The notes under the pieces were generated by a model. It was given only the letters and a program-made list of their open reading frames with translations, was not told where the DNA came from and searched no databases. From Phycisphaera sp. (GTDB lineage: Bacteria > Planctomycetota > Phycisphaerae > Phycisphaerales > SM1A02), in NCBI GenBank assembly GCA_016124975.1, contig WGMP01000047.1, positions 1-64,000 on the forward strand: 64,000 nt of DNA, read 5' to 3'. A program made the position numbers and the translations under genes. Position 1 is the stretch's first letter. Each line of letters begins with the position of its first letter. Positions 12,068 through 25,299 of the stretch are shown piece by piece.

Positions 12068-13699
12068 GTGAATCCGATCCCGTCATCGCGTCCTCTCACT
12101 GTGTCCGGGCCAGCGGCGGAGATTCCGCGCGTCCGCTTCATCGCCCGACTTGGAACCGCGGGACGCATCATCGTCGGGGTGGCGCTTTCCGCGACGCTCC
12201 TCGGCTGCGAGGTCGACTCGTGGATGGACCCGAGCCGCACGGGCTACTTCGAGACGACGCCGACCACGATGCCGATCCTTTCGCGGCTCGATGTGATCGA
12301 GCGCTCGACATTCAAGGGCGCGCAGGTCGCGCCGCCCCAGCCCGAGGACCTCGTGCCGGGCGAGCTCAAGTACCGCCTCGCGCCGGGCGACGAGCTGCGC
12401 ATCGACATCTTCGAGCTGGTCCAGCCCGGCGAGAGCGACATCGATGTGCGCGTGATCGACCAGACGGGCAATGTTCGCATCAAGGAGATCGGCGATGTGC
12501 CCGCCGCGGGACTCACCCTTGAGGAGTTCCAGCGCGAGGTCGAGATCCGCGTCAGCCGCATCCTGCAGTCGCCCGTCGTGAGCGTGGCGCTCACCCGCGC
12601 GCAGAGCTTCCAGTTCTCGATCTCGGGAGCCGTCCAGACCGTCGGCGTGTTCGGCCTCACGAAGCCCGACCTGCGCCTGACCGAGGCCCTCGCCCTCGCG
12701 GGCGGAACCTTCGCCACCACGCAGCGCATCACCGTCGTCCGTGCGGCGCCGCTCGACGACACGCTGAATCCCGTCTATCCGCCCGCCACCGAGGACGCGA
12801 ACTCGTTCATCGAGGACACGGGCGCAGGCGGCGGCACCACCCAGCCGAAGGTTGATCTCGACGCGCTGATCGAGGGTCTCGGCGGCGCGGAATCAGGTGC
12901 GACGGGCGACGGTGCCATGACGAATCCGCCGACGGCGCCCGCGCCAGGCGCGGTCGGCCGCGCACGGCCCACGCTCGCGCAGGACGACACGCCCGCGGTC
13001 GACATCGACGATGTCTCCGTGCCGCGCGTCGCGGACGCGGAGCCCGCGGTCCCCGCGCCGCGCGGAACGCAGGACGCGGCGTCGACCGTGCAGTGGACCT
13101 TCGACACGGCGAGCGGACGCTGGGTGCGCGGCGCAGGCGCTGGCAACGGCGCGGGAACCGAGCAGTCGCGCGCTGCGGCCGCCGCGGCCGCGATGTACGC
13201 CACGCGCATCATCGAGATCGACTACCAGGCGCTGGTCAAGGGCGACCCGAACCTCGATGTCGTCATCCGTCCGAACGACCGCATCTATGTGGAGCCCCCC
13301 GAGACGGGCTTCATCTACATCGATGGCGAGATCAACAGAATCGGCGTCTACGAGCTGCAGAACTCGAACGGGCGGCTCACGCTGAGCCGCTTCGTGTCGG
13401 CCGCGGGAGGCCTCTCGCCGACCGCGATCCCGAACCGCGTCGATCTCGTGCGCGTGGTCGGCAAGGACCGCGAGGCGACGATCCGCGTCGACCTCGCCGC
13501 GATCCGCAACCGCTCCGAGCCCGACATCTACATGCGTCCCGACGACCATGTGATCATCGGCACCAACCTCATCGCGACGCCGCTGGCGATCATCCGCAAC
13601 GGCTTCCGCATGACCTACGGCTTCGGCTTCCTCCTCGACCGCAACTTCGGCAACGACGTGTTCGGTCCGCCGCCCGAGTTCACGATCTTCGATCGATAA
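12068..13699 (+). CDS. Polysaccharide export lipoprotein (Wza-like)
   Basis: A 543-residue outer-membrane export protein. The N-terminal hydrophobic segment ends with the lipobox TLLGC at about residue 50, so a lipoprotein is expected. The Poly_export domain follows (YRLAPGDELRIDIFELVQPGE; GNVRIKEIGDVPAAGLTLEEFQ), then an SLBB-like segment (FSISGAVQTVGVFGL). A low-complexity insert of about 130 residues rich in Ala/Pro precedes a second SLBB-like part (GFIYIDGEINRIGVYEL). The family forms the outer channel for capsule or exopolysaccharide. The start is GTG 12068. It leads the locus with exosortase, chain-length and priming genes, which supports the role. The insert makes it longer than E. coli Wza (about 380). 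Confidence 0.9.
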   Translation: MNPIPSSRPLTVSGPAAEIPRVRFIARLGTAGRIIVGVALSATLLGCEVDSWMDPSRTGYFETTPTTMPILSRLDVIERSTFKGAQVAPPQPEDLVPGELKYRLAPGDELRIDIFELVQPGESDIDVRVIDQTGNVRIKEIGDVPAAGLTLEEFQREVEIRVSRILQSPVVSVALTRAQSFQFSISGAVQTVGVFGLTKPDLRLTEALALAGGTFATTQRITVVRAAPLDDTLNPVYPPATEDANSFIEDTGAGGGTTQPKVDLDALIEGLGGAESGATGDGAMTNPPTAPAPGAVGRARPTLAQDDTPAVDIDDVSVPRVADAEPAVPAPRGTQDAASTVQWTFDTASGRWVRGAGAGNGAGTEQSRAAAAAAAMYATRIIEIDYQALVKGDPNLDVVIRPNDRIYVEPPETGFIYIDGEINRIGVYELQNSNGRLTLSRFVSAAGGLSPTAIPNRVDLVRVVGKDREATIRVDLAAIRNRSEPDIYMRPDDHVIIGTNLIATPLAIIRNGFRMTYGFGFLLDRNFGNDVFGPPPEFTIFDR

Positions 13700-13702
13700 C
13701 CG

Positions 13703-13983
13703 ATGAAGCCCGGCGCGACCACGACCGATCGCCTCCTCGGGGGCCTCGACGCGATCCACGGACGCCGCGCCAAGGGGCGGGCGTGATGGAAGCCCGTTTC
13801 CAGCGCGCAGGGCGGGGCCTCGACCCCGCGGCCGCGGCGTCGTCCGCGTTCGCGGACCTTGCGTGCGCTCTTCAAGATCGCGTGTGTGCGCGGACGAACC
13901 TCTTGGACGAAGGCCTCGTAGCGCTAGGCTCTGCGACTTCCGCAGCGGCGAGACCAGGGACCGGGGCACGGACTCGAGCATGA
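13703..13983 (+). CDS. Two possible small coupled ORFs ahead of the exosortase gene
   Basis: Between the export gene and the exosortase lie two short ORFs: 13703-13786 (27 residues, MKPGATTTDRLLGGLDAIHG...) and 13786-13983 (65 residues, MEARFQRAGRGLDPAAA...). They are joined by TGATG, and the second joins the exosortase start by ATGA. Such overlaps usually mean translational coupling. I recognise neither product; they could also be the remnant of one broken gene. No signal peptide or motif is apparent. Treat as tentative. Confidence 0.3.
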
Positions 13984-14951
13984 CTTCCTCAGGCGGAGCA
14001 CCATCCATCGCCATCGCCCGCGCGGCGCGCCCGCGCACCGTGAGGCTTTCGTCCGTGCAGCTCGTGCTGCTCGGGCTCGGACTCCTCGCGGCGCTCGTCG
14101 CCGTGTTCTGGGTCTTCGTGGAGGGGCAGTTCCGAATGGCGCTCGAGGCGCCCGCGGACTGGGGGCACACGCTGATCGTGCCGTTCATCTCGGGCTACTT
14201 CGTCTATCTGCGGAAGGACGAGCTGCTCGAGAAGCCTTTCACGGCGAACTGGCTCGGGCTTCCGATCGTGATCCTCGGCGTCGCGTTCTACGTGGCGTCG
14301 ACCTTCGGGCCGTCGTGGTTCGTGCTGCACCACAACGCGCGCGGACTCTCGATCGGCATCACGCTCCTCGGGCTCTCGCTTCAACTCCTCGGCTGGCGCG
14401 CGACGCGCCTGATGCTCTTCCCCCTCGCGTACTGGGTCATCTTCGGCCAGACGGTGAGCGACCGCCTGCTCCAGATCGTGACGCAGAGCATGCAGGACTG
14501 GTCCGCGCTGGGCGCATTCGGCCTGCTCAAGCTCTTCGGCGTCGATGTGGAGCGCAGCGGCAACGTCATCACCGTGTTCGTCAACGGCGAGCCGAACCAA
14601 CTGAACGTCGCGGAGGCGTGCTCGGGCATGCGCATGCTCGTGGCGTTCCTCGCGCTCGGCGTCGCCATCGCCTACACGGGCCTCAGCGTCACCTGGCAGC
14701 GGGTCGCGCTCGTCCTCTCGGGCGTGCCCGTCGCGATCGGCGTCAACGTGCTGCGCGTCTTCACGCTCGGGGTCCTCTCGCTCTGGGACGCGAACTTCGC
14801 CTCGGGCGACTTCCACAGCTTCGTCGGGCTCGTGTGGCTCGTTCCCGCGCTGATGCTCTACCTCGGCATCATGTGGTTCCTGCGGAACCTCTTCGTCGAG
14901 GCGCCCGCCGCGGACGGAAGCAAGAGCAAGGGGGCTCCGCATGCAGGTTGA
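13980..14951 (+). CDS. Exosortase/archaeosortase family transpeptidase
   Basis: A 323-residue polytopic membrane protein with about eight predicted transmembrane segments. The three catalytic residues of the family are visible: Cys214 in EACSGMR, Arg259 in VNVLRV and His279 in FHSFVGL. Exosortases process C-terminal PEP-CTERM-type sorting signals and are often encoded inside polysaccharide loci, as here. It overlaps the following EpsI-like gene by 11 bp. The start at ATG 13980 overlaps an upstream small ORF. No protein with a PEP-CTERM tail is encoded in the window, so its substrates lie elsewhere (inference). The subtype within the exosortase families cannot be assigned from sequence alone. 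Confidence 0.94.
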   Translation: MTSSGGAPSIAIARAARPRTVRLSSVQLVLLGLGLLAALVAVFWVFVEGQFRMALEAPADWGHTLIVPFISGYFVYLRKDELLEKPFTANWLGLPIVILGVAFYVASTFGPSWFVLHHNARGLSIGITLLGLSLQLLGWRATRLMLFPLAYWVIFGQTVSDRLLQIVTQSMQDWSALGAFGLLKLFGVDVERSGNVITVFVNGEPNQLNVAEACSGMRMLVAFLALGVAIAYTGLSVTWQRVALVLSGVPVAIGVNVLRVFTLGVLSLWDANFASGDFHSFVGLVWLVPALMLYLGIMWFLRNLFVEAPAADGSKSKGAPHAG

Positions 14952-15801
14952 ACGGTCCGCCATCCAGGCGTATGTCGCGGCGATCGCGGTGCTCGTGCTC
15001 GGAGCCGTCGGCTTTCGCATGCTCGTCGCGGAGCTCAACATCCACCTCATGAAGGAGCGCGTCGAGCTGCGGCGGCCGCTCGACACGATTCCCACCAAGC
15101 TCGGCCGCTGGGAGCGCATCGGAAGCGACAGCGTCTTCAGCGACACGCTGATCGAGGAGCTCGGCACGCGCAGCTACCTCGACCGCGCCTATGCGATCGA
15201 CGGCGACCCCGCGAAGGGCTATGTCCATGTGCACATCGCCTACTACACGGGCACGATCGACGCCGTGCCGCACATCCCCGAGCGATGCTGGGCGGTCGGA
15301 GGCCTCGAGCTGACGCGCAACTCCGAGGGCGTGGCGCTGGACATCGACCGCTCGGAGTGGCGCCCGTACGAGGGTCCCGCGAAGGTGGACCAGCCCTATC
15401 TCGTCGCCGAGGTGCGCGATCCGATCACGGCGGACATCGAGTGGATCACGATGCCGCTCGGCGAGATCGCGGCGACGACGATCGAGTTCCAGGATCCGAA
15501 GAAGCCCGAGGACCGCCAGGTCGGCGGCTACTTCTTCATCGCGAACGGCCGTGCCGTGCCGTCGAGCTACGGCGTGCGCCAGGCGGCCTTCAACCTGCGG
15601 GACAGGTACGCCTACTACTGCAAGATCCAGCTGACGAAGCGCGGGAAGGTGGACAAGCCCGATGGCTCGCTGCTCGAGCCGTTCAAGGCCGACGCCGCCG
15701 AGATCCTCGACGAGCTCATCCCGCACGTGATGCGCTCGCTGCCCGACTGGCCGACCTACGAGGAACTGTCGCGAGGGGAGAAATCGCGCGACGCGGAGTG
15801 A
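14941..15801 (+). CDS. Exosortase-associated EpsI-like protein
   Basis: A 286-residue protein with one N-terminal membrane anchor (about 8-28: YVAAIAVLVLGAVGF) and a periplasmic domain matching the EpsI family found next to or fused to exosortases. The family-typical start LGRWERIGSDSVFSDTLIEELGT and the segment VHVHIAYYTGTIDAVPHIPERCW are present. Many organisms carry exosortase and EpsI as one fused protein; here they are separate genes with an 11-bp overlap (stop at 14951, start at 14941), implying coupled translation. The biochemical role of EpsI is not established; it is thought to act in exopolysaccharide assembly or sorting. Confidence 0.88.
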   Translation: MQVERSAIQAYVAAIAVLVLGAVGFRMLVAELNIHLMKERVELRRPLDTIPTKLGRWERIGSDSVFSDTLIEELGTRSYLDRAYAIDGDPAKGYVHVHIAYYTGTIDAVPHIPERCWAVGGLELTRNSEGVALDIDRSEWRPYEGPAKVDQPYLVAEVRDPITADIEWITMPLGEIAATTIEFQDPKKPEDRQVGGYFFIANGRAVPSSYGVRQAAFNLRDRYAYYCKIQLTKRGKVDKPDGSLLEPFKADAAEILDELIPHVMRSLPDWPTYEELSRGEKSRDAE

Positions 15802-15900: not shown

Positions 15901-18900
15901 ATGGCACAGAAACTCAACAAGAAGCTCGTCTTCGTCGTCGGATCGCTCCTCATCGCGCTGGTGGTCGGCGGCGCGGGCATCCTCTTCTTCCGCTATCGCA
16001 CTGACGCCGAGCGGCACATCCGCGCGGGCGACCAGCTGCTCGCGGCGGGCGATGCGCGCCGTGCCGCGGAGTCGTACGGCCGTGCGGTCGCGAAGAAGAG
16101 CAACAATCCCGCGTATCTCGAGAAGTTCCGCGACGCGACGCTCCTGGTGAAGTCGGAGACGGAGAACGACGCGCGCGAGCGCTACGGCCAGTACCTGCAG
16201 TCGCTCGCGAGCCTCGCGCGCGTCGAGCGCGTGAACGTGAACCGCTGGCGCGACTACCTCCGCGCGCTCGACGACCAGGCCGAGGTCGTGGGTGCGCCGT
16301 CGAACTGGAAGACGCTGGCGGATGTCGCCAACGAGATGTCGCAGGTGATGCCCGCGGGCGGCGCGGGCCGCGCCGTCGCAGCCGTGTTCGCGGGCTACGC
16401 GGGCGCCCGGCGCGCGGGCTCGCTCGACGAGTCCGAGCGCGAGAAGCTCGTCGCAGATCTCAAGATCGCCGCGGAATCGCCAGACCTCACCGAGTCGGAG
16501 CGCGACCTCGCCTATGGCGCCATTGCGCGCATGGCCGTGTTCGAGCTCGCCCGTGCCCGCGCGAGCGCTGGCGAGGCTCAGGTCGCCGCCGCAGCCGCGA
16601 AGGCCGATGCGGCGCTCGCTGCGGCGGGCGAGAAGTCGCCGAAGGGGCTCCAGACCGCGATCGCGCGCTTCGAGCGCGCCATCGTCGACGCGGGCGCAGA
16701 TCCGCAGAACCCCGCGCTCCTCGCGAGCACGGACGCGCTGATGGAGACCGCGCAGGCGCATGTCGACAACGGGTTCACGGTGCTCGCGCTCGCAGGCGTG
16801 CTCTCGCGCGCAGGCAGGCCCGGCGTCGAGAGCGCTGCAGAGATCCTCGGGCAGCACATCGAGCGCAACCCGAACGCGCTGATGCATCGCCGCGCGCGCG
16901 CGGTGCTCCTTCGCCCGATCGACCGCGTGCAGGCGCTCGCGGACATCGAGGCCGTGCTCGCGATGGAGCGGCCGACCACCGGCATCGTGGCCGCGAGCTT
17001 CGAGGGCAACAAGATCAGCGCGGCGCAGATCCGCTTCGACATCCTGCACGATGGGCTCGGCGGCCTCGACGGCGCCGCGCGCGAGGAGGCGCTTACGAAG
17101 GTGTCCGCGGCCCGCGATGCGCTCGCCGGCCTTCTCACGGGCGCCGCGGACGACTCGCCGCTCCTGCGCGCAGACGCGAAGATCGCGCTCGCCAAGCAGG
17201 ACTTCGCCAACGCGCAGATCAAGCTCAACGAGATCTTCAGGAAGGGCAGCTCGATCGACCTCGAGCTCCATGTGCTCTCCGCGATCGCCGCGCAGCAGCT
17301 CGGCGAGACGGGTCGCGCGCTCGAGCTCGTGAACGGCGGCCTTCGCCTCGCGCCCGACAACGCGCCGCTCCTCAAGCTCCGCGCCGAGCTCGAGGTCCGC
17401 GCGGGCCGTCCGCAGGAGGCGCTGGTCACGCTGCGCACGCTGCGCGGACTCACGCCCGACGACCCCGACATCGCGGTCGCGGAGCAGCAGGTCGAGCGCA
17501 TCCTTGCGAGCGACCCGAGCACGAACGCGGGCGCGGGCATGAGCGATGCGGTGGCCGATCTCTTCGGACAGGTGCAGGCGAAGCTCGACGCGAACGACTT
17601 CGACGGGGCGCGCCGCCTCGTCGAAGGGATGAGGCAGACGCTCGGCGAGCGCGATCCACGCGTCGACCGCATCGCGGTGGTCGTCGAGATGCGCGCGGGC
17701 GAGACTGCGCGCGCGACGGAACTCGTGAAGGCGGGGCTCGAGCGCTTCCCCGGCGATGCGCTCCTCGCGCGGCTGAACGCGGTCCTCGCGAGCGACGACC
17801 CTGTCGCGCGCGTGGTCGCCATGATGGATGTGGGCGAGGTCGACGAAGCGACTCGCACCGTCCTCACCTATGTGCGCATGCGCCAGGCCGCCGCGATGAT
17901 GACGGACCAGGCCTCGCGCGAGACGCGCACGAGCATGCCGTCGGCCGCGGAGACGGCGGAGACCGCGAAGCGTCTCGAGGCGGGCGCGGCCGAGTGGCGC
18001 GCCAAGGCCGAGGCGACGGATCGCGCGCACCCGATCCTGATCGAGGCGGACTTCCGCGACGCGATCGCGAAGCGCGACTTCGCCACGGCGGCCGCCACGG
18101 TCGCGCTCGCCAAGCAGAGCGGGCGCGACCCCACGCAGGCGCCGCTCCTCGAGTCGCAGATGCTGTTCGAACAGGGCAAGCGCCGCGAGGCGACCGAACT
18201 GCTCGAGCGGACCATCGCCGCGGGCATCGACAACTCCACCGTCTTCCGCGCGCTCGGCACCATGCTCGAGCAGCAGGGCAACCTCGACGGCGCGATCACG
18301 CAGTACGAGGAGTCCTATCGCCGCCGTCCGTCCGACATGGCGACGGTGCGGCTCCTTGTCGGCGCGGCCGTGCGCGGAGGCAACCTCCAGCGCGCCCTCG
18401 AGGTGCTCCGCTCCGCGCGGCAGCTCGCGGGCTTCGATGAGGAGGTCGGCGAAGTGTGGCTCTCGCTCGAGAGCCAGATCGGCGACAGGCGCCTCGCGCT
18501 GCGACTCCGAGAGAACCAGTACCGCGCCACGCCCGCGGATGAACGCAACGCGATCGGCCTCGCGAACACGCTCGCGACCACCGCGCCCGAGCGCACAGAC
18601 GTGCTCACCGAGCGCGGCGACGCCGCGTACAGCGAGTCGGCCTGGTCGGCGCTGACCGAGCCGCAGCGGAACGCCGCGCTTGACCGCGTGCGCGCGCAGT
18701 GGCGAAAGCGCGCCGAGGACATCCTCGTCGCCGCACAGCGCCGCGCGCCCGCGAGCCTCGCGGTCGCAGAGAACTACGCCACGCTTCTTCGCTCGCTCGG
18801 TCGCGAGGCCGAGGCCGAGAAGGCGGTCGCAGACGCGGTCGCCGCCGCAGGCGACTCTGCGGGCTGGCGCGGACTCGTCGTCCTCGGAAACCTGCAGCTC

Positions 18901-20637
18901 CAGATGGGACGCGCCGAGGCGGCGGCGGAGACCTTCCGCAAGGCGATCGCGCTCGAGAACCCGCAGTCCCGCGACGCGACCCTCGAGATCGCCGCGCTCC
19001 TCATCTCGCAGGACCGCTACGCAGACGCGCTTCCCTACCTTGAGGACGCCGTGCGCGTGGTGCCCGAGCCGTTCCAGAAGCTGCGCCTCTGCGAGTGCCT
19101 CCTGCGCGTGGGCCGCATCGACGAGGCGCGGCAGCTGCTCTCCTCGGTGCTCGCCGCGGGAAGCCCGCGCGGCTTCACGGAGGAGATGCTCGACGGCTCG
19201 ATCTTCATCGCCGAGGGAGACAGGGCCCGCAACGCGGGCGATGTCGCCGCTGCGCGCGCCGCCTACGAGTCGGCGCTCGCGCCGTTCGGCCGCGCCAAGG
19301 CCCTGGCGCCTGCCGCCGCGCAGACCTTCATGCAGGACGCCATCGCGAAGCGCCGGCTCTTCGAGCTGACCGGCGAGCGGGGCCGCTTCGAGGAGGCGCG
19401 CGCGGCCGCCGACCGCGCCATCGCGCTCGCGGCGTCGTTCTTCCCCGCAAGCGCCGTGCGCGCGGATGTCCTTCTCTCGAACCAGGACGTGTCGGGCGCC
19501 CTCGGCGAACTCGACCGCTTCCTCCGCCTCGTTCCCGCGTCGGTCGAGGGCCGCCGTCGCGCGGTCGAGCTGTCGCTTCTCACGGGCAACACGGCGCGTG
19601 CGGAGGCCTATCTCCGCGAGGCGATCGGCTACGCGCCGGGCGAGGCCTCGTGGCACTTCGCCCTCGGCGACGTGCTAGCACGCCTCAACCGCCATGGCGA
19701 GGCCGCTGCTGCGTTCAACCGCGCCGACACGCTGCGGCCCGAAGCCGTGAGCGTGCTCCGCGAGATGGAGTCGAGGATCCGTGCGCGCGACTTCCGCGGC
19801 GTCACCGAGACGGCGCGGCGCAGGGGTGACTTCATCCGCACCAGCACCGCCGCCCGCGCGCTGACGGGTGTGGCGCTCATCGCCGCAGGCGAACGAGGCG
19901 ACGGCTCGAAGACGCTCTCCGAGGTCTACGCCGAGCTGAGCGCTTCGAGCGACCCGCAGGCGCTCGCAGAGTGGTACGGCGCCATCGAGCTCCTGTTCAC
20001 GCCCGCCGATCTCGCGGCGGCCGAGGATCTCCTGAAGCGGATCGTGGGCGCGGATCTCTCGCCGAGGGCGCGGCTCTTCCTGTCGGGCCTCGCGATCGGA
20101 AGCGGCTCGGGCGGCCCCCAGAAGGCGCTCGAGTACCTCAAGCCGCTCGAGTCCGGCGACTACTCGGGCGACCGCGAGCTCGGGGCGATGCTCTTCGACC
20201 GGCTCGGCACCGCGAGCTACCTCTCGGGCGACTGCGCCGGGGCGATCTCGGCGTATGAGAAGGCCCTTGGCTTCGCGCCCGACTTCCACCCGATCCTCAA
20301 CAACTACGCCTATCTCTGCGGCGACTGCCTGAAGGACCCGAAGCGCGGGCTTCCGTCGGCCCGCCGCGCCGTGCAGATGCAGCCCACGCGCCCCGAGTAC
20401 CTCGACACGCTTGGGTCGCTGCTCATCGCGGACGGCTCGCATCGGGAGGCGCTCGAGTACCTCGACCGCGCGGCGCGCATCGCGGACTCGGCGCCCGTCC
20501 AGTTCCACCGGGCGCAGGCGCTGCTCGGGCTCGGCCAGAAGGCCGACGCGCAGGCCGCCGCCCAGCGCGCGGCGTCGCTGAACCCCGACGAGCAGACGCG
20601 GCGCAAGCTCGCTGAACTCGAGCCCAAGCTGCGGTGA
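15901..20637 (+). CDS. Giant membrane-anchored TPR protein
   Basis: At 1578 residues this is the largest intact protein in the window. One N-terminal transmembrane helix (about 10-31, LVFVVGSLLIALVVGGAGILFF) is followed by tetratricopeptide-like repeats almost to the end. Recognisable units include HIRAGDQLLAAGDARRAAESYGRAV near residue 40, AITQYEESYRRRPSDMATVRLL, and the C-terminal AISAYEKALGFAPDFHPILNNYAYL and ALEYLDRAARIADSAPVQFHRAQALLGLGQ. The orientation suggests a periplasmic scaffold. It sits between EpsI and the chain-length gene. A TPR protein called PrsT accompanies PEP-CTERM/EPS loci in proteobacteria, so an analogous role is reasonable, though this protein is much longer and orthology is unproven. 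Confidence 0.88.
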   Translation: MAQKLNKKLVFVVGSLLIALVVGGAGILFFRYRTDAERHIRAGDQLLAAGDARRAAESYGRAVAKKSNNPAYLEKFRDATLLVKSETENDARERYGQYLQSLASLARVERVNVNRWRDYLRALDDQAEVVGAPSNWKTLADVANEMSQVMPAGGAGRAVAAVFAGYAGARRAGSLDESEREKLVADLKIAAESPDLTESERDLAYGAIARMAVFELARARASAGEAQVAAAAAKADAALAAAGEKSPKGLQTAIARFERAIVDAGADPQNPALLASTDALMETAQAHVDNGFTVLALAGVLSRAGRPGVESAAEILGQHIERNPNALMHRRARAVLLRPIDRVQALADIEAVLAMERPTTGIVAASFEGNKISAAQIRFDILHDGLGGLDGAAREEALTKVSAARDALAGLLTGAADDSPLLRADAKIALAKQDFANAQIKLNEIFRKGSSIDLELHVLSAIAAQQLGETGRALELVNGGLRLAPDNAPLLKLRAELEVRAGRPQEALVTLRTLRGLTPDDPDIAVAEQQVERILASDPSTNAGAGMSDAVADLFGQVQAKLDANDFDGARRLVEGMRQTLGERDPRVDRIAVVVEMRAGETARATELVKAGLERFPGDALLARLNAVLASDDPVARVVAMMDVGEVDEATRTVLTYVRMRQAAAMMTDQASRETRTSMPSAAETAETAKRLEAGAAEWRAKAEATDRAHPILIEADFRDAIAKRDFATAAATVALAKQSGRDPTQAPLLESQMLFEQGKRREATELLERTIAAGIDNSTVFRALGTMLEQQGNLDGAITQYEESYRRRPSDMATVRLLVGAAVRGGNLQRALEVLRSARQLAGFDEEVGEVWLSLESQIGDRRLALRLRENQYRATPADERNAIGLANTLATTAPERTDVLTERGDAAYSESAWSALTEPQRNAALDRVRAQWRKRAEDILVAAQRRAPASLAVAENYATLLRSLGREAEAEKAVADAVAAAGDSAGWRGLVVLGNLQLQMGRAEAAAETFRKAIALENPQSRDATLEIAALLISQDRYADALPYLEDAVRVVPEPFQKLRLCECLLRVGRIDEARQLLSSVLAAGSPRGFTEEMLDGSIFIAEGDRARNAGDVAAARAAYESALAPFGRAKALAPAAAQTFMQDAIAKRRLFELTGERGRFEEARAAADRAIALAASFFPASAVRADVLLSNQDVSGALGELDRFLRLVPASVEGRRRAVELSLLTGNTARAEAYLREAIGYAPGEASWHFALGDVLARLNRHGEAAAAFNRADTLRPEAVSVLREMESRIRARDFRGVTETARRRGDFIRTSTAARALTGVALIAAGERGDGSKTLSEVYAELSASSDPQALAEWYGAIELLFTPADLAAAEDLLKRIVGADLSPRARLFLSGLAIGSGSGGPQKALEYLKPLESGDYSGDRELGAMLFDRLGTASYLSGDCAGAISAYEKALGFAPDFHPILNNYAYLCGDCLKDPKRGLPSARRAVQMQPTRPEYLDTLGSLLIADGSHREALEYLDRAARIADSAPVQFHRAQALLGLGQKADAQAAAQRAASLNPDEQTRRKLAELEPKLR

Positions 20638-20710: not shown

Positions 20711-22897
20711 ATGACGACCGCTCCGACCCGACCTCAGTTCGACGCCCGCCCGCCAGCACAGCGGCCGCGTCCGAGCGCGCCGGCCGCCGTGCAGATCGAT
20801 CCGATCCGCATCCTGCGCCAGCATGTGTGGGGCATCGCGGCGGCGGCCGTGATCGGCATCGTGATCGGTGCCGCGGCGACGGTCGTGCTCCAGATGGTCT
20901 ATCCGCTCTACTCGGGCCGCGTGGTGTTCGAGCTCGTGCCCGCGCCCGACGAGGTCGGCGATGTGATCGTGCGCGACCAGCGCACCGAGGAGGCGGTCGA
21001 GCGTCTTGGGCAGACGGAGGCCGCGCGCATCAAGGCCCGCACGCTGCTGATGCAGGCCATGAGCCGCAGCGACATCGTGCAGACCGGCTGGGCACAGGGC
21101 TTCATCGACTCGAGCGGCAACTTCGACCTGAACAAGGCCGTCGACGAGCTCGAGGAGGACCTCGGCGCCAGCCACATGCGCCGCACGAACTTCTTCGCCC
21201 TGAACTGGTCGACCCACGCCTCTGCCGACGTGCCCGTCATCCTGAACGCCATCGCCGACACCTACCTCGAGGTGCGCCGCGGCGAGGACAACGCGCGCTT
21301 CGAGCAGAACCGCGGCACCTTCGAGACGCAGCTCAACCGCCTCGACCAGGACATCACGAACATCGGCAACGAGCTCCGCAAGTTCGTCGAGGAGAACAAC
21401 CTCACCGCGACGCGCGAGGACCGCAACGAGAAGCTGATCCGCGTCGAGGACACGGGCATGCAGCTCACGCAGACGCAGTCGCAGCTCACCTTCGCGGAGA
21501 GCCGCAAGCTGCAGACAGAGCGCAAGATCCGCGGCGAGATCGAGCCGACGCCAGACGACGTGCGCCGCGCGGAAGAGGACGAGCAGGTCCTCCGCGCGAA
21601 CATCCGCGTGCAGGAGCTCCTCGTCGAGCTCGACACCTATCGCCGCAAGTTCCGCGAGGGCCATTCCGCGATCCGCTCGATCGAGGCGCGCCTCAAGGCC
21701 GCGCAGAACGAGCGTGACATGAAGCTCCAGGAGATCATCCGCCGCAACCTCAACGCCGACTTCAAGGAGTTCTCCGATGTCGTCGAGAGCCAGCTCGCGG
21801 TGCGCGAGAAGTTCATGGCCGAGATGGCGCTCCACACGACGGGCCTGAAGGACCAGGCCGCCGCCCTCGCCAAGGTCGAGGAGCTCAAGGAGCGGCGTGA
21901 GCGGCTCCTCGAGGCGCGCGCCACGCAGCTCCAGATTCTCGCGAACCTCGCGCAGCTCAAGGCCCGCGAGGACGCGCGCGCGGTCAGCATCGCGCAGCGC
22001 GCCCAGACCCCGCGCGAGCTCAGCTTCCCGCAGTACAAGGTGATGCTGCCGCTCGGCGGCGTGCTCGGTCTCGCGCTCTTCCTCGGCGTGATCTTCCTCC
22101 GCGAGCTCCTCGACACGCGCGTCCGCTCCGCGGCCGACCTTGCGGTCATGCAGGGTGTCCGCATCCTCGGCACCGTGCCCGAGCTCTCCGACGACCCCGT
22201 CGCACCGTCGAAGGTCGAGCGCGCGGTGTTTCATGCGCCGCGGTCGGTCATCGCCGAGTCCTCGCGGCAGATCGCGGGGCAGATCGCGAAGATCAGCGCC
22301 CAGCAGGGCCTGCGCACGATCGGCTTCCTGAGCGGCCTTCCGGGCGCGGGCACGACCTCGGTGGTGAGCAACACCGCGGACTCGCTCGCAGCGGGCGGCC
22401 GCAAGGTGCTCGTCATCGACGCCAACTTCCGACGCAGCAACCTCGCCGCGGCGATGGGCGTCCAGCCCGACGCCAAGGGTCTCGGCGACGTCCTCCATGA
22501 CAAGGCGACGCTCGCCGACGCCGTGCGTCAGACGGGTGGCGAGGTGGATCTCCTCGCCGCGGGAACGCCAGCCGACCGCGTCTACGAGTTGCTCTCGGGA
22601 CCGCGGTTCGACAAGGTCCTCGCCGAGGCGCTCGAGCGCTACGACATCGTCCTCCTCGACCTGCCGCCCGCGGTCGTCGCGGGAGACGCGCTCGCGGTCG
22701 CGAACAAGATCGACGCCACGGTGCTCGTCGTCCGTGCGATGCAGGAGCAGCGTGGTCTCGTCGGACGCCTCGTCGGACAGCTCAGCGACGTGCGCGGCAA
22801 GTGCATGGGCGTCGTCCTCAACAGGCCCCAGGGCACCGCAGGCGGCTACCTCCGCAAGAACTACGAGGCCATGGCGACCTACTCCGCCAAGAGCTGA
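20711..22897 (+). CDS. Wzc/GumC-like polysaccharide chain-length protein with degenerate kinase domain
   Basis: A 728-residue inner-membrane protein. It has an N-terminal Wzz domain with one membrane helix (about 41-63), a long coiled coil (about 200-450), a second helix (VMLPLGGVLGLALFLGVIFL) and a C-terminal CpsD-type nucleotide-binding domain. In bacterial tyrosine autokinases the P-loop ends GxGKS/T; here residues 544-550 are PGAGTTS, with Thr548 in place of the lysine. The aspartates of Walker A' (VLVIDANFRR) and Walker B (IVLLDLPP) remain, and three tyrosines lie near the C terminus. It probably controls chain length; kinase activity is doubtful. It lies between the TPR and epimerase genes. 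Confidence 0.9.
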   Translation: MTTAPTRPQFDARPPAQRPRPSAPAAVQIDPIRILRQHVWGIAAAAVIGIVIGAAATVVLQMVYPLYSGRVVFELVPAPDEVGDVIVRDQRTEEAVERLGQTEAARIKARTLLMQAMSRSDIVQTGWAQGFIDSSGNFDLNKAVDELEEDLGASHMRRTNFFALNWSTHASADVPVILNAIADTYLEVRRGEDNARFEQNRGTFETQLNRLDQDITNIGNELRKFVEENNLTATREDRNEKLIRVEDTGMQLTQTQSQLTFAESRKLQTERKIRGEIEPTPDDVRRAEEDEQVLRANIRVQELLVELDTYRRKFREGHSAIRSIEARLKAAQNERDMKLQEIIRRNLNADFKEFSDVVESQLAVREKFMAEMALHTTGLKDQAAALAKVEELKERRERLLEARATQLQILANLAQLKAREDARAVSIAQRAQTPRELSFPQYKVMLPLGGVLGLALFLGVIFLRELLDTRVRSAADLAVMQGVRILGTVPELSDDPVAPSKVERAVFHAPRSVIAESSRQIAGQIAKISAQQGLRTIGFLSGLPGAGTTSVVSNTADSLAAGGRKVLVIDANFRRSNLAAAMGVQPDAKGLGDVLHDKATLADAVRQTGGEVDLLAAGTPADRVYELLSGPRFDKVLAEALERYDIVLLDLPPAVVAGDALAVANKIDATVLVVRAMQEQRGLVGRLVGQLSDVRGKCMGVVLNRPQGTAGGYLRKNYEAMATYSAKS

Positions 22898-22954
22898 CCG
22901 CGCCACGCACCGCGCGCGGTGGAAACCGAAGACGAGCACGAACGGACGACACGC

Positions 22955-23980
22955 ATGTCGACAGCGCACCGCCCACGCCGCGTCCTGATCACGGGAGGCG
23001 GAGGCTTCATCGGCTCGCATCTCTCCGAGCTCCTCCTCGACCGAGGCGACACCGTCACCATCGTCGACGACTTCTCGACGGGCCGCCGCGCCAATGTCGG
23101 CATCGTCCGCGACGGCGCGGGCCGCGCGGAGCGCTACCGCGTGATCGAGGGCACCGTCTCCACAGTGCTGCCAGGTCTGTCGCCCCTCGACTACGACTGC
23201 GTCTACCACCTCGCGGCCGCCGTCGGCGTGCGCATGGTGGTCGAGCGGCCGATCCACACCATCGAGACGAATGTGCACGAGACGAGCGTCGTGCTGCGCT
23301 TCTGCGCCGAGCGCGCGCTGCCCGTCCTGATCGCCTCGACGAGCGAGGTCTACGGCAAGGGCGTGCGCGTCCCGATGCGCGAGGACGACGACGTGGTGTA
23401 CGGCTCGACGGGCTTCAGCCGCTGGTGCTACGCCTGCTCGAAGGCGATCGACGAGTACCTCGCGCTCGCCTACCACCGCGAGTTCGGGCTTCCCGCTGTG
23501 ATCGTGCGCTTCTTCAACACCGTGGGGCCGAGGCAGATCGGCGAGCACGGCATGGTGCTGCCGCGCTTCGTAGAGGCCGCGCTCGACGGGCGTGCGCTCG
23601 AGGTCCACGGAGACGGCAGGCAGTCGCGCTGCTTCTGCGATGTGCGCGATGTGGTGAAGGTCCTTCCGAGGCTCGTCGAGACCGAGGCCTGCCACGGCCG
23701 CGTCTTCAATGTGGGGCGCGAGGAGCCGATCTCGATCCGCGAGCTCGCGGATCTCGTGAACGCGACCCTCGGCGGCGCGGGCGGCGTGCGCATGGTCCCG
23801 TATGCGGAGGCCTTCTCCGCGGGATTCGACGACCTGCTCGTGCGGCAGCCCGACCTCTCGCGCATCCGCGAGGCCGTGGGATTCGCGCCAGCGATTCCGC
23901 TCGCGCAGACCATTCGTGACCTGGCCGAGGAAATCAGGGGGCGACGCGCGCTCGATGCCGCGCACGGGGCACCTGGATGA
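22955..23980 (+). CDS. NAD-dependent epimerase/dehydratase (extended SDR)
   Basis: A 341-residue nucleotide-sugar enzyme of the extended SDR family. The dinucleotide-binding motif GGGGFIGSH is near residue 14; the catalytic serine lies in IASTSEVYGKG and the YxxxK pair in YACSKAIDEYLALAY. RFFNTVGPRQIGEHGMVLPRF and the C-terminal FNVGREEPISIRELA resemble UDP-glucuronate decarboxylases and UDP-sugar epimerases; the substrate cannot be fixed. ATG 22955 is chosen over GTG 22919, which would add 12 acidic residues. It ends in an ATGA overlap with the WecA-like gene, so the two are co-translated and probably supply the same polysaccharide. Confidence 0.9.
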   Translation: MSTAHRPRRVLITGGGGFIGSHLSELLLDRGDTVTIVDDFSTGRRANVGIVRDGAGRAERYRVIEGTVSTVLPGLSPLDYDCVYHLAAAVGVRMVVERPIHTIETNVHETSVVLRFCAERALPVLIASTSEVYGKGVRVPMREDDDVVYGSTGFSRWCYACSKAIDEYLALAYHREFGLPAVIVRFFNTVGPRQIGEHGMVLPRFVEAALDGRALEVHGDGRQSRCFCDVRDVVKVLPRLVETEACHGRVFNVGREEPISIRELADLVNATLGGAGGVRMVPYAEAFSAGFDDLLVRQPDLSRIREAVGFAPAIPLAQTIRDLAEEIRGRRALDAAHGAPG

Positions 23981-25299
23981 ACCAGACGGACGCCATGTCG
24001 CAGGGAGCGGAGGTGCTTGCGCCTGCGATGGAGCCGATCGCTCCCGCACCGCTCGTCGGACCGAGCAGCTTCGGGATGACCGAGCTGCTCAACGGCTACG
24101 CGGGCGTTTTTCTCGTGAGCTTCCTCGTGACGCTGGTTGCGACGCCGCTCGTCCGCAAGCTCGCGATCGAGATGGAGATCATCGACCGTCCCGACGAGGC
24201 GCGGAAGCAGCACCGCTATCCGATCGCCTATCTCGGCGGTCTGGCCGTCTTCATCGGCGTGATGGCCGCGATCGTCTACAGCGTCGTCCTCGTCGACGGC
24301 GCCGGCGGCTCGCTCGGCCCCGTGCCGTTCTCGATCATCATCGGCCTCCTCGCCATCACCTTCACAGGCCTCGCCGACGATGTCTGGGGCTGGGACCCGC
24401 GGCTCAAGATCATGGGCCAGCTCGTCGCGGCTGCGGCGCTCGCGCTCGAGGACACGGGAATCCGCGTGGCGGAGGGCGCGCTGCTGCCACTGCTCGGGCC
24501 GCCCGAAGCCGTGCTCGTCACCATCGGTCCTGTGCAGGTCTTCGCGTCGTATGTCTACGAGGCGGTGGGAACGATCATCATCGGCCTCTTCGTCGTCGGC
24601 GGCTGCAACGCCATGAACCTGATCGACGGCCTCGACGGCCTCTGCTCGGGCACGGCGGGCATCATGGCGACCGCGCTCCTCGTCCTCTCGCTGATGATGG
24701 CCGCTGGCACCGTGATCGTCGATCCGTACGAGTCGATGGCGGGCGTGCGCATCATCCTCTGTCTCGCGCTCCTGGGCGCAGTCCTCGGCTTCCTGCCGTG
24801 GAACTTCAACCCGGCCGTGATCTTCCTCGGCGACTGCGGGAGCCTCCTGATCGGGTACCTCCTCGTCGTGGTCATCCTCCTCCTTGGCGAGAAGGGGCAG
24901 ACGCACCTCGTCTTCGCGGGCCTGATCATCTTCGCCCTCCCGATCATGGACACGGCGCTCGCCATCCTGCGGCGAAAGCTCGCGGGCGTGTCGATGTCGC
25001 AGGCCGACGCGAACCACATCCACCACCTCGCGAAGCGCGCCCTCGGCGGCGTGAAGCGCGCGGTGGGCGCGCTCTATCTCGTCACCGCGCTCTTCGGCGG
25101 GCTCGGCATCCTGCTCGGGTTCCTCGCGATCGAGCAGATCGTCCGCCTGCGCATCGTCTATGCGACCGCGATCGTCCTGTTCGGGGTGATCGCGGCCGTG
25201 AGCCTGAAGACGGCGCTTCGGAACCGTTGGACGGCGCAACTCGCTCCCGCGGAGGGCGCCTCCAGTGGCTCTGGAGAGCGCAATCCTGCCCGTGAATGA
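23977..25299 (+). CDS. WecA/MraY-family undecaprenyl-phosphate sugar-1-phosphate transferase
   Basis: A 440-residue polytopic membrane protein with about eleven hydrophobic segments. It transfers a sugar-1-phosphate from a UDP-sugar to undecaprenyl phosphate, the first lipid-linked step. Family motifs are LADDVWGWDPRLK, NAMNLIDGLDGL, FLGDCGSLLIGY and the histidine-rich ANHIHHLAKRAL. Overall it resembles WecA/TagO-type enzymes more than MraY. It overlaps the epimerase by ATGA and the rsmH start by up to 35 bp, linking the polysaccharide block to the wall cluster. It probably primes the exopolysaccharide made by this locus. Confidence 0.92.
   Translation: MNQTDAMSQGAEVLAPAMEPIAPAPLVGPSSFGMTELLNGYAGVFLVSFLVTLVATPLVRKLAIEMEIIDRPDEARKQHRYPIAYLGGLAVFIGVMAAIVYSVVLVDGAGGSLGPVPFSIIIGLLAITFTGLADDVWGWDPRLKIMGQLVAAAALALEDTGIRVAEGALLPLLGPPEAVLVTIGPVQVFASYVYEAVGTIIIGLFVVGGCNAMNLIDGLDGLCSGTAGIMATALLVLSLMMAAGTVIVDPYESMAGVRIILCLALLGAVLGFLPWNFNPAVIFLGDCGSLLIGYLLVVVILLLGEKGQTHLVFAGLIIFALPIMDTALAILRRKLAGVSMSQADANHIHHLAKRALGGVKRAVGALYLVTALFGGLGILLGFLAIEQIVRLRIVYATAIVLFGVIAAVSLKTALRNRWTAQLAPAEGASSGSGERNPARE

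Follow-up and report, generated by a model that had tools for sequence, protein, structure and literature searches.

The protein studied here, a Wzc-like protein of 728 residues from Phycisphaera sp., is in our view best explained, with a probability of about 0.6, as a conserved tyrosine pseudokinase that is fused to a PCP-2a co-polymerase and whose dead active site serves as a dock for the tyrosine tail of the neighbouring subunit. Such a protein would probably serve as a scaffold instead of catalysing a reaction. The loss of kinase activity is suggested by its sequence together with published work on the K540M variant of Wzc. The gene lies in the window, by which we mean the whole stretch of 64,000 nucleotides that was analysed (contig WGMP01000047.1), and its features and neighbours are collected in Table 1.

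The open reading frame begins with ATG and its translation includes ...IGFLSGLPGAGTTSVVSN... The protein matches TIGR01005 and TIGR01007 of NCBIfam below cut-off, with 99.1 bits against a curated cut-off of 108.05 for TIGR01007 (polysaccharide biosynthesis tyrosine autokinase). It also stays below the curated cut-offs of the XrtA-associated models TIGR03007 (41.7 against 278.85 bits) and TIGR03018 (87.5 against 230.65 bits). The nearest solved sequences in HMMER alignments were the BY-kinase domains of CapB1, VpsO and BceF. The AlphaFold model (mean pLDDT 84.5, pTM 0.46) resembles Wzc along its length in Foldseek (best E 1.2e-27), and the best matches of the model in both VIA-align 2 and Foldseek are Wzc/CapB. 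When the cytoplasmic part was compared by VIA-align, CapAB gave Z 34.2 (238 residues, rmsd 1.7) and its K55M mutant gave Z 34.0 (252 residues, rmsd 2.0); as modelled, the BY-kinase fold is kept in the cytoplasmic domain. The model and the Wzc matches span residues 28-728, with a poor rmsd for the whole protein, and they predict a PCP-2a of the Wzc type, in which two predicted membrane helices surround a long helical periplasmic part and the second of them, helix 442-467, connects this part with a cytoplasmic BY-kinase-like domain.

Table 1. Features of the co-polymerase gene and its neighbours, in window coordinates
Feature	Position	Strand	Basis
Wza-like outer-membrane polysaccharide export protein	12068..13699	+	PF02563; TIGR03028 below cut-off
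Exosortase (EpsH family)	13863..14951	+	PF09721, TIGR02602 above cut-off
EpsI-like DUF3485 protein	14941..15801	+	PF11984
Large TPR protein, PrsT-like	15901..20637	+	TIGR02917 below cut-off
Wzc-like polysaccharide co-polymerase with fused degenerate BY-kinase domain, 728 aa	20711..22897	+	Profiles, AlphaFold model, Foldseek
First long hydrophobic helix, residues 39-63, probable transmembrane helix 1	20825..20899	+	Model helix; transmembrane nature inferred from Wzc layout
Helix 442-467, probable transmembrane helix 2	22034..22111	+	Model helix; inferred from Wzc layout
E516-x2-R519-x2-A522, matching the E-x2-R-x2-R octamer-interface motif except for the lost third residue	22256..22276	+	
Degenerate Walker A, residues 541-552, SGLPGAGTTSVV	22331..22366	+	Sequence and Wzc alignment
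Codon ACG, Thr548, site of Wzc Lys540	22352..22354	+	Sequence and Wzc alignment
Walker A' VLVIDANFRR, residues 566-575, D-x-N instead of D-x-D	22406..22435	+	Family alignment, Wzc alignment
Codon AAC, Asn572, site of Wzc Asp564	22424..22426	+	Wzc alignment; N in 152/153 family rows
Arg623, where K/R-type relatives mostly have Asn (PPNPxELL)	22577..22579	+	Family alignment
Walker B YDIVLLDLPP with Asp650 (Wzc Asp642)	22640..22669	+	D in 151/153 family rows
C-terminal tail, Tyr713, Tyr718, Tyr724, GGYLRKNYEAMATY	22823..22894	+	Low pLDDT in model
NAD-dependent sugar epimerase/dehydratase	22919..23980	+	PF01370
WecA/MraY-like phosphoglycosyltransferase	23977..25299	+	PF00953; TIGR02380 below cut-off

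The first-pass annotation of this DNA had placed a threonine, Thr548, where the P-loop lysine is expected. Alignments with Wzc and with solved BY-kinases confirmed this. Alignment to the Wzc of E. coli K-12, as translated from NC_000913, pairs T548 with K540, T549 with T541, D570 with D562, N572 with D564, R574 with R566 and D650 with D642, and T548 stands opposite the lysine of GK[ST] in CapB1, VpsO, BceF and CapB2 in each HMMER alignment shown. The codon had been read correctly as ACG and placed one base off, at 22351-22353. No displaced lysine was found within residues 541-552, and at the GK[ST] lysine position of active BY-kinases, here Thr548, Lys or Arg occurs in none of the 61 rows from the window's order. 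The Walker A' and Walker B aspartates and the tail tyrosines had also been described as remaining, and this holds for D570, D650, Y713, Y718 and Y724 but not for the second Walker A' aspartate: the D-x-D-x-R of active BY-kinases reads D570-A-N572-F-R574. Walker B has the form hhhhDxxP (VLLDLPP, with D650). With a predicted BY-kinase fold that lacks key catalytic residues, the domain would be a BY pseudokinase in the sense in which the term is used for EcpK.

The distribution of these residues was read from a family of 207 proteins scoring at least 376 bits, the cut-off being placed in the score gap between 376 and 322 bits. The 287 matches had been reduced to 244 non-redundant ones by dropping identical or contained sequences, and 37 of these fall below the cut-off, including one fragment that lacks the ATPase part. 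The family is widespread in the class. The protein has a match with an E value of 1.3e-50 or better in 58/61 genomes taken from the window's order and its inner groups, and profile A1 scores at least 376 bits in 115 of the 120 genomes sampled from the class. A phylum sample of 99 genomes includes 93 that lie outside the class, and all of these stay at or below 322 bits. Most of the named records from the search with the closer profile carry the label Phycisphaerae, Phycisphaerales or Planctomycetota, from which the name of the class was taken. Since the loci found via the patterns [VI]DANFRR and TAGGY[FL][RK]KN (L186-L265) are biased, the main counts were restricted to the 153 rows that came from a motif-free genome search.

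Position 548 in these rows is T36 A10 V6 S4 C3 N1 G1 in the order (61 rows) and K53 R21 A14 T3 S1 in the rest of the class (92 rows). An alignment of Phycisphaerae proteins, the check that the first-pass annotation had proposed for conservation of the substitution, thus finds lysine absent order-wide, in 0/61 rows and, with the pattern-found loci added, in 0/115 non-redundant proteins (113/115 of which have Asn572). A sequencing error or local mutation is ruled out, the absence of lysine being common to the whole order. Asn572 is present in 61/61 order rows and in 91/92 rows from the rest of the class, lysine bearers included. Of the homologues that span this site and do not belong to the family, as read from printed alignment rows, 36/36 have Lys and D-x-D and 0/36 have Asn at 572. 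Gly547 is invariant (153/153) and Thr/Ser549 nearly so. In the tail, two of the three tyrosines are nearly invariant (Y713 in 151/153 rows, Y724 in 153/153), as is G712 over the class. Their number is smaller than in the tyrosine-rich C-terminal cluster of outside homologues, 24 of which carry 4-11 in their last 60 residues, and averages 2.7 in the order against 4.2 in K/R-type rows. Of the interface motif, Glu516 is found in 152 and Arg519 in 151 of the 153 family rows; position 522 is Arg in 93% of K/R-type representatives versus 34% in the order.

A tree of 121 proteins was built with columns 548 and 572 excluded. On it, the window's order forms one clade (39 rows, SH-aLRT 99) without Lys or Arg, and elsewhere Lys/Arg is lost in one whole family-level clade and in two single rows, which amounts to a minimum of 4 Lys/Arg losses, or 8 changes when Lys and Arg are told apart. 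The outgroup does not form one clean side of the tree, as the long-branched paralogue L064 groups with the order clade at 86%. The Walker A lysine thus appears to have been lost in the ancestor of the window's order and on three or more further occasions in other lineages. Lysine-intact orthologues, which the earlier annotation had regarded as a possible sign of error, are present in other families of the class but do not imply error, because the tree makes the loss old and clade-wide. Nearly all members, including those with lysine, have Asn572, so the Asp-to-Asn change would have preceded the loss of lysine; judged from this distribution, it is probably ancestral to the whole family.

A second lysine-less clade, f9 (e.g. 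L104, L110, L111, L123, L173, L175, L184, L185), has GG[AST][ST]T P-loops and a tyrosine in place of the Walker A' arginine (D-x-N-x-Y). Clade f15 (e.g. L095, L124, L127, L138) combines D-x-N with an Arg at the Walker A lysine position (G-x-G-R-[ST]). Genomes of the order also encode a separate Wzc-like paralogue (L068-L075) in which GKT and D-x-D are kept but neither E-x2-R nor the arginine of Walker A' is present.

Several positions that are conserved in K/R-type relatives are relaxed in the order, namely S541, R522, P621, L627 and T540. The mean column entropy of the ATPase part is 1.79 in the order and 1.74 in K/R-type relatives, and this similarity points to comparable constraint on the entire domain, which is not decaying. 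A pseudogene was ruled out by the intact 728-residue frame, by collinear orthologues and by an ATPase part as well conserved as in lysine-bearing relatives.

In the standing model, Wzc-type co-polymerases cycle between phosphorylated and unphosphorylated states. Excerpts of published work describe unphosphorylated Wzc as an octamer in which each tail lies in the active site of the neighbour, and the K540M protein as homogeneous and octameric (PMC8285477); phosphorylation breaks the ring (PMC8285477; PMC11986026, excerpts), and in the isolated kinase ring the Y715 hydroxyl bonds D564 (PMC7485978, excerpt). We propose that in the present protein the fold, Gly547, Asn572, Asp650, the E-x2-R pair and Tyr713/Tyr724 are kept because the dead site receives the tyrosine tail of the neighbour. 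Tail docking would hold the cytoplasmic ring together, like the octamer of kinase-dead Wzc K540M, Asn572 would be able to hydrogen-bond the tyrosine hydroxyl where Wzc uses Asp564, and ring assembly and disassembly for chain-length control would run without autophosphorylation. In this family Y724 and N572, the counterparts of Y715 and D564 in Wzc, belong to the best-conserved residues while the ATP lysine drifts, from which we infer a latch without a kinase, with tail docking and with cycling that would need no phosphorylation. The first-pass annotation had suggested a pseudokinase that still regulates chain length, for example by oligomerising, and this is the reading that comparative data support best; its alternative, nucleotide binding of an unusual kind, may also apply. 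The older change to Asn572 had been missed.

The contact between Y724 and N572 is a prediction, because the tail is modelled with low confidence and its residue-by-residue pairing with that of Wzc spans an alignment gap. Kinase-null mutations of E. coli Wzc lower capsule production (PMC11986026, excerpt), and a locked octamer might therefore be insufficient by itself. Most of the order lacks R522, which makes the formation of an octamer uncertain. In VpsO, R583 stacks on the tyrosine (PMC7485978, excerpt); its counterpart, counted along the alignment, is unconserved in the family and was left out of the argument.

The conserved Thr/Ser549, Asp650 and phosphate-loop glycine would also fit retained Mg-nucleotide binding. 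The domain might then transfer no phosphate and still bind ATP or ADP as a nucleotide-sensing switch for ring assembly, using main-chain contacts of the P-loop, Thr549, Asp650 and perhaps other basic residues. The invariance of G547 and the near-invariance of T/S549 and D650 would agree with this, as would the conservation of R574 and R686 in the order. The lysine position, however, varies among seven residue types across the order, and S541 and the P621/L627 positions, which K/R-type relatives conserve, were lost together with the lysine. We consider a nucleotide switch unlikely.

Conservation of tail tyrosines on a domain that looks dead could also mean that they are phosphorylated in trans by another kinase, e.g. 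of the Hanks type, the domain being a regulated acceptor. Genes of the low-molecular-weight tyrosine phosphatase family, found in 41/41 order genomes searched, would suit this idea. A TIGR01007 search of the window's genome (97.6% complete), however, revealed no second BY-kinase; four other matches reached at most 34.7 bits and were read as ParA/MinD/Mrp-like by motif. The drop in tail tyrosines from K/R-type rows to the order also speaks against phosphorylation in trans, and so does the company of the phosphatase. No Wzb-type phosphatase was found among the ten window genes searched between 6265 and 25299. A gene for a low-molecular-weight tyrosine phosphatase is located 2.3-4.3 kb downstream of the co-polymerase, in the same orientation, in 21/49 order loci (L208, L214-L218, L223-L225, L229, L230, L233, L236, L237, L242, L249, L251, L255, L259, L260, L264) and in 0/77 other family loci. 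Its next neighbour was compared with Pfam in five loci (L208, L224, L233, L237, L255) and proved to be a fructosamine kinase in each; the phosphatase itself was run for L255 only. Pairs of a phosphatase and a fructosamine kinase that act in protein deglycation are known. The neighbouring fructosamine kinase points to such a pair rather than to Wzb; this is not proof, and the phosphatase may have a role on the tail. The downstream gene, which at first looked like a strong sign of live phosphorylation, was not counted as such, and we regard phosphorylation of the tail in trans as improbable.

WNK kinases moved their lysine. The present proteins could similarly form a 'with-no-lysine' BY-kinase line in which the whole family first lost tyrosine transfer (Asp to Asn) and lysine-less clades then recruited a basic residue from another loop, a history that we judge quite improbable. 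The family alignment is suggestive of such a pocket, which would bind nucleotide or phosphotyrosine in a new way, as a switch. Residue 623 is Asn in 56/74 K/R-type rows and Arg in 51/61 order rows, 14 of 18 other rows without lysine carry Lys or Arg at the equivalent place before the conserved Glu, and a basic residue at 527 is also commoner in the order. On the tree, the gain of a basic residue at 623 is nested inside lysine-less clades, 12 of the 49 lysine-less rows do without it, and the test of residue 623 rests on 4 independent pairs, too few for significance. Basic residues at 623 are thus commoner both in the order and in another lysine-less clade, but the tree test has no power, and a compensating basic residue was not adopted as the main reading.

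An active autokinase that works by unusual chemistry despite Thr548 and Asn572 would account for the retained fold, Walker B and tyrosine tail, and is very improbable, given that mutation of Lys540 abrogates phosphorylation of Wzc (PMC8285477, excerpt) and that the Asp564 site, which faces the acceptor tyrosine, is also Asn. It is scarcely credible that the degenerate site is a neutral relic in a domain kept for structural contacts, with no special role for the tail tyrosines, for although the lysine position drifts freely, the near-invariance of N572, Y713, Y724 and G712 over the class is above what is expected of a relic.

The present protein resembles E. coli Wzc in layout, fold, Walker B aspartate, E-x2-R motif, tyrosine tail and a Wza-type exporter nearby, and differs from it in having Thr548 for Lys540, Asn572 for Asp564, few tail tyrosines and an exosortase locus. 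Excerpts of PMC12004946 present EcpK/EpsV of Myxococcus xanthus as a scaffold pseudokinase, and the likeness to our protein lies in a BY-kinase fold without catalytic residues, an EPS pathway and a proposed scaffold role. EcpK is described there as a stand-alone protein with a separate PCP-2, no Walker motifs and no tail tyrosines, whereas the protein from the window is fused to the co-polymerase and keeps Walker B, part of Walker A' and Y713/Y724. The kept tail tyrosines separate the family from EcpK, not from the wider group of BY pseudokinases. In the same excerpts, EcpK and HfsB are known as separate proteins, and fused PCP-2/pseudokinase proteins such as SMc01795 are cited from Cuthbertson et al.; the latter, known here via PMC12004946 alone, likewise combine co-polymerase and pseudokinase in one chain, and none of those named in the excerpts is from Planctomycetota. 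S. aureus CapB1 and B. subtilis PtkB are BY-kinase-like proteins likewise described as inactive (PMC3795738, excerpt). CapB1, unlike the present protein, keeps GK[ST] and D-x-D in our alignment; PtkB is known here from that excerpt alone.

A search of the open-licence literature found no work on exopolysaccharide tyrosine kinases of Phycisphaerae. Tyrosines kept in a fused pseudokinase, an Asn-first history and repeated loss of lysine appear to be new. The EcpK pseudokinase idea would thereby extend to fused proteins with intact tails. The family separates two roles of the tail, as substrate and as a latch that holds the ring, and its natural intermediates (Lys with Asn, Arg with Asn, neither with Asn) could show which step of the cycle is needed.

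The gene belongs to a class-wide exosortase/EPS operon with conserved order. Genes on the same strand encode the Wza-like protein in 44/49 order loci and 65/77 other family loci, and the exosortase in 44/49 and 71/77; the EpsI-like gene was found in 45/49 and 57/77, the PrsT-like TPR gene in 49/49 and 45/77, and the WecA/MraY-like gene in 47/49 and 0/77. These counts refer to loci of at least 11 kb, those of the order having been found via the patterns. The locus resembles the XrtA/PEP-CTERM system in being exosortase-linked and in combining an export protein, a TPR protein, a co-polymerase and a kinase domain; in the XrtA system co-polymerase (TIGR03007) and kinase (TIGR03018) are separate models, and here the two are fused. 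Between 23977 and 29678 the EPS operon runs into division and cell-wall genes on the same strand. Downstream of the WecA-like gene are rsmH-type and penicillin-binding-protein-like genes, named from their translations, and roughly half of the order loci have matches to both in the vicinity of the co-polymerase.
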